Assembly: GCF_000328625.1 (NCBI RefSeq)
Contig: NC_019978.1
Coordinates: 1,178,001 to 1,242,000 of the forward strand
DNA: 64,000 nucleotides
Source: Halobacteroides halobius DSM 5150
GTDB taxonomy: Bacteria > Bacillota > Halanaerobiia > Halobacteroidales > Halobacteroidaceae
Direction: 5' to 3'
The notes under the pieces are model-generated. The model made no database searches, was not told the origin of the DNA, and saw only the letters and a list, made by a program, of their open reading frames with translations. Made by a program: the position numbers and the translations under genes. Shown here in pieces: positions 44,108-44,827 of the stretch (positions are counted from its first letter, which is position 1; every line of letters starts with the position of its first letter).

Positions 44108-44827
44108 ATGATTATTCAACTGCGGGGTGGAAAGATTTATATCTGGTTAATAATCATTTATTTATTTTTTTGGGCCCCTAAACAATTAGAATTAGTCCAA
44201 AGTCCTCAACCTTTAGCTTCTCAAAGAGTAATAGTAATTGATCCTGGTCATGGAGGAATAGATGGAGGAACAAGTTATAATGAGGTACTAGAGAAGAATA
44301 TTAATTTAGAGATTGGACTTAAACTAAAAAAATATTTAGAAACTAAAAATAATCTTAAAGTGGTTATGACCAGAGAAGAGGATACAGCACTAGATCATCT
44401 AAATAACTATTCTAGTAGTCGCCATATAAGAGATTTAAGAGCTAGAATAGATATTATTAATCAATAGGAAGTAGATATATTTATTAGTTTACATGTTGAT
44501 CATAGAGCTGGGCAAACTAAAATGAGAGGGCCAACTGTTCTTTATCATTCTCGTCATCCCCAAAATAAGATTTTAGCTAAGACGTTACAAAAATATCTTA
44601 ACAAGATAGAATATTCTAATCTTGAGCCTGTTAATCATGCTCCTCAAGAGAGAAAGAATCTTTATATCTTAAAAGCCAAAAAAACTCCAGGAGTTATTGT
44701 TGAAGTAGGATTTATTACTAATGATTTAGATAGAAGATTACTGTTAAAAGAAGCATATCAAGAGATATTGGTTCAGGCAATTTATAAGGGAATAGAAGAA
44801 TATTTTTCAGGCTTTAAATTTATTTAA
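44108..44827 (+). pseudogene. N-acetylmuramoyl-L-alanine amidase (Amidase_3) split by an in-frame UAG
   Basis: The coding frame runs unbroken for 239 codons except for TAG at 44465-44467. Before it: an N-terminal membrane segment and the zinc site IDPGHGGIDGG near 47 with Glu in NEVLEKNINLEIG. After it, in the same frame: FISLHVDHRAG with the second zinc His, and VIVEVGFITND with the catalytic Glu. The truncated product would lack half the active site. There is no frameshift or other stop, so the loss is recent or the UAG is read through. UAG is a common true stop elsewhere in the window. It would cleave peptide stems from peptidoglycan outside the cell. Confidence 0.85.

Follow-up and report, generated by a model that had tools for sequence, protein, structure and literature searches.

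A premature UAG codon in a CwlD-like amidase gene of Halobacteroides halobius: a probable recent nonsense mutation

In C. difficile CwlD, the zinc ion is bound by H49 and E65, and E199 is the catalytic residue (PMC8496864). Its structure (PDB 7RAG) is the closest solved relative of the amidase described here, with a match of 108.7 bits over residues 38-236. According to one published account, in-frame stop codons that are subject to purifying selection occur widely among bacteria (PMC7918605). We analyzed a CwlD-like N-acetylmuramoyl-L-alanine amidase gene that is interrupted by a single TAG codon and lies in a 64,000-nucleotide stretch of the Halobacteroides halobius DSM 5150 genome (contig NC_019978.1, positions 1,178,001 to 1,242,000), hereafter referred to as the window. 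The gene is one of two ancient CwlD-like paralogues and has probably suffered a nonsense mutation very recently.

The interrupted reading frame

The features of the locus are summarized in Table 1. The original prediction described the amidase frame as complete except for one TAG, placed between the first and second zinc-site segments, and this proved exact. The TAG follows the zinc ligands H48 and E62 and precedes H129 and the catalytic E199, and the frame then remains open to its TAA with no second stop. The sequence AAAGGAGTGACCGT upstream of the ATG constitutes a good ribosome-binding site, and the readthrough product consists of an N-terminal hydrophobic, membrane-type segment followed by a complete Amidase_3 domain. 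Reinitiation giving an active C-terminal piece was considered and rejected, as the 101-residue downstream frame opens, at the first ATG past the stop, only beyond H129 and has no clear ribosome-binding site; an active product from this frame is therefore unlikely.

Table 1. Coordinates of the CwlD-like amidase features (window positions unless a genome coordinate is given)
Feature	Position	Strand	Description
CwlD-like Amidase_3 gene with premature stop	44108..44827	+	239 codons plus TAA; ATG start
Premature TAG, codon 120 of 239	44465..44467	+	Column is L/E/K/D/S in 11 orthologues
Truncated product, 119 aa	44108..44467	+	Membrane segment and first domain half (H48, E62); lacks H129 and E199
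Downstream ORF, 101 aa	44522..44827	+	First ATG 3' of the stop; begins past H129
Intact CwlD-like paralogue, 230 aa	G000:C1:688393-689085 (L026 4394-5086)	- on L026	No internal stop

Residues 42-230 of the read-through frame match positions 1-173 of the 174 in the Pfam Amidase_3 profile (PF01520; E 2.5e-43, 148.5 bits against a curated cut-off of 27 bits). With H48, E62, H129, and E199 all present, the read-through frame thus belongs to Amidase_3, whereas under the standard code the TAG at codon 120 leaves no continuous Amidase_3 frame. The best NCBIfam match was spore_cwlD (TIGR02883), at 175.5 bits and hence below the curated cut-off of 221.55 bits for the CwlD equivalog. The orthologue in genome G003 scores 164.9 bits with the same model. 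The intact paralogue of H. halobius (G000) scores slightly higher than the window copy against both TIGR02883 (184.2 bits, also below the cut-off) and 7RAG (129.8 bits). SpoIVA was found in the genome, so that at least one sporulation marker is retained, and our literature search found no account of endospores in Halobacteroides.

Orthologues and age of the mutation

Counting the window's own, orthologues are present in all eight genomes of the family, with about 61% identity in each of the other seven, and in four of five genomes of the sister family. The 1.5-kb regions flanking the orthologues contained none of the genes that neighbor the window gene, and orthology therefore rests on the tree. 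None of the 11 orthologues contains an internal stop, and the window copy alone is interrupted. The codon comparison proposed originally gave a sense codon in all 11 relatives and TAG in none; in order, the column reads L (TTA), E (GAA), K (AAA), D (GAT), E (GAA), E (GAA), S (TCT), E (GAG), E (GAA), K (AAA), and K (AAA), with glutamate and lysine the most common residues. Codon 120 is a low-constraint site, apparently situated after a helix-like segment (RARIDIINQ) and before the H129-bearing strand.

The sequence downstream of the stop shows no sign of decay. Among the residues that are invariant in the other seven family members, the window copy retains 40 of 42 before the stop and 41 of 41 after it, and when each of the other members was left out in turn, these lost 0-5 residues before the stop position and 0-6 after it. 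The window copy does not sit on a long branch in the trees made from the two halves of the protein, and in the whole-family tree its branch measures 0.26, compared with 0.29 (L003), 0.35 (L005), and 0.56 (L009). Assuming that 4-6% of random substitutions create a stop, neutral divergence after the gene was inactivated can have reached no more than about 0.07-0.10 substitutions per site, given that a second stop is lacking. No congeneric genome was available for dating among the eight family genomes, where the window's own is the only one from its genus, and a scan of genome contigs gave only Halanaerobacter jeridensis and one distant MAG. A TAG in a paralogue of genome G005 (G005:C8:39910-40497) was examined as a possible recurrence and rejected, being the terminal stop of that gene. 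The proposal of a very recent loss is supported by the intact orthologues, the lack of further damage, and the complete retention of conserved residues after the stop. Conservation and the absence of a second stop would fit a very recent mutation, and would equally fit use by readthrough or a sequence error.

Decoding of UAG and alternative explanations

UAG was originally estimated to end about ten genes in the window, and TAG was indeed found to terminate 12 of the 50 non-overlapping long ORFs, the amidase frame included. The other 11 all have a further stop in frame 0-16 codons beyond their TAG, and several abut the start of the next gene, so that UAG is an ordinary stop codon here. The amidase TAG is no ordinary gene end, as it is followed by 119 codons of conserved amidase before the next stop. 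Nowhere else in the window does a TAG divide two stretches that share a frame and each span 90 codons or more; the three other such pairs meet at TAA and represent the ends of separate neighboring ORFs.

The suggestion that UAG might be decoded here as pyrrolysine started from the observation that some relatives encode this amino acid, which is right: pylS, pylB, and pylT were found together in G004 (L023) and G006 (L024) of the same family and in G011 (L022) of the sister family. For the window gene itself, such decoding was not borne out and is extremely improbable. In the H. halobius genome (a single contig of 2,649,255 bases, 99.99% complete), the PylS search gave only weak class-II synthetase cross-matches (best 22 bits against a cut-off of 178), while the same search returned 285-303 bits in the three relatives. 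Likewise, the best PylB match reached 182 bits against a cut-off of 348, compared with 474-481 bits in the relatives. The tRNA-Pyl of G004, which has 88-100% matches in the three pyl-containing genomes, found nothing in the genome when used as query, and none of the 75 tRNAs identified with the Rfam model and re-read by ARAGORN carries a CUA anticodon. A PylC-like match was rejected as PylC, being an ATP-grasp-like protein in a nucleotide-sugar neighborhood with no pyl neighbors. Furthermore, the three pyl-containing relatives have GAA at the stop position (L007, L008, and L011), so that nothing marks the UAG as the remnant of a former pyrrolysine codon. The gene should be kept out of lists of pyrrolysine candidates. 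Pyrrolysine decoding is patchy even inside this family, with two of eight genomes. In G006, two pylT-like copies were observed, 94% and 88% identical to the G004 pylT. As a separate observation on tRNA genes, a 21-gene array in H. halobius (L073, G000:C1:1824300-1826650) includes two copies of one block, ordered His, Arg, Gly, Phe, Met, Lys, Val, Glu in both, which apparently go back to a tandem duplication.

Decoding of UAG could also take place without a dedicated system, if near-cognate tRNAs (e.g., those for Gln, Tyr, or Lys) read the codon at low frequency and thereby supplied enough amidase for catalysis. The highly variable codon-120 column, which takes almost any residue, would accommodate such insertions, and two further points are in line with it, namely that the catalytic residues and every family-invariant residue downstream of the stop are retained, and that in-frame stops under selection have been described (see above); full conservation downstream of the stop would be expected also if low readthrough kept the gene useful. 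Against this, there is no suppressor tRNA, the RF1 gene is present (542.6 bits against a cut-off of 423), the stop occurs in no relative, the window contains no second gene divided by TAG in this manner, and recency explains the conservation equally well. We thus regard a leaky UAG as quite unlikely, and its use for dosage control of a cortex-type amidase, with useful low-level product made without a dedicated suppressor tRNA, as very unlikely. A sequencing or assembly error, with a sense codon in the true sequence and an intact gene, is an unlikely explanation as well. An error in a single base would indeed appear as a lone substitution in a gene that is intact elsewhere, but the genome was assembled as one highly complete contig, and substitution errors are rare in finished genomes.

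According to the preferred explanation, a recent nonsense mutation, a single base change would have created the UAG at codon 120, where RF1 presumably ends translation. The product left would be half a domain, anchored in the membrane and lacking both the third zinc ligand and the catalytic glutamate. Lacking H129 and E199, this half-domain is predicted to be inactive, and the gene would thus yield no active amidase, a loss that seems to be tolerated, perhaps through the intact paralogue.

The intact paralogue and comparison with known systems

The paralogue falls in a clade separate from that of the window copy, and each of the 13 genomes searched in the two families has a member of this clade. 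CwlD-like amidases form two old lineages in both families, and in this strain one of the two has probably just been hit. The genes surrounding the paralogue, named by eye from their translations, include two for SleB-like hydrolases, two polysaccharide deacetylase-like genes, and a VanW-like gene, which possibly represents a spore-cortex gene neighborhood. The cortex function of CwlD, a germination-specific amidase with a part in forming the muramic delta-lactam of the spore cortex, may rest on the paralogue in H. halobius, making loss of the window copy tolerable.

Compared with C. difficile CwlD, the window amidase has H48, E62, and E199 in the roles of H49, E65, and E199, but differs in carrying a stop and in scoring below the TIGR02883 cut-off. 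With pyrrolysine genes, including those whose in-frame UAG arose neutrally, it has in common that a conserved frame contains UAG at a position that is not itself conserved. It differs in that the H. halobius genome has none of the pyl components searched for, and the relatives that possess them carry GAA at this codon. The locus most closely follows an ordinary pattern, that of one more recent pseudogene with little weight beyond annotation. No difference was found between the window amidase and recent bacterial nonsense pseudogenes, with which it shares a single stop in frame at a variable position, the lack of further decay, and intact orthologues with a sense codon at the affected position.
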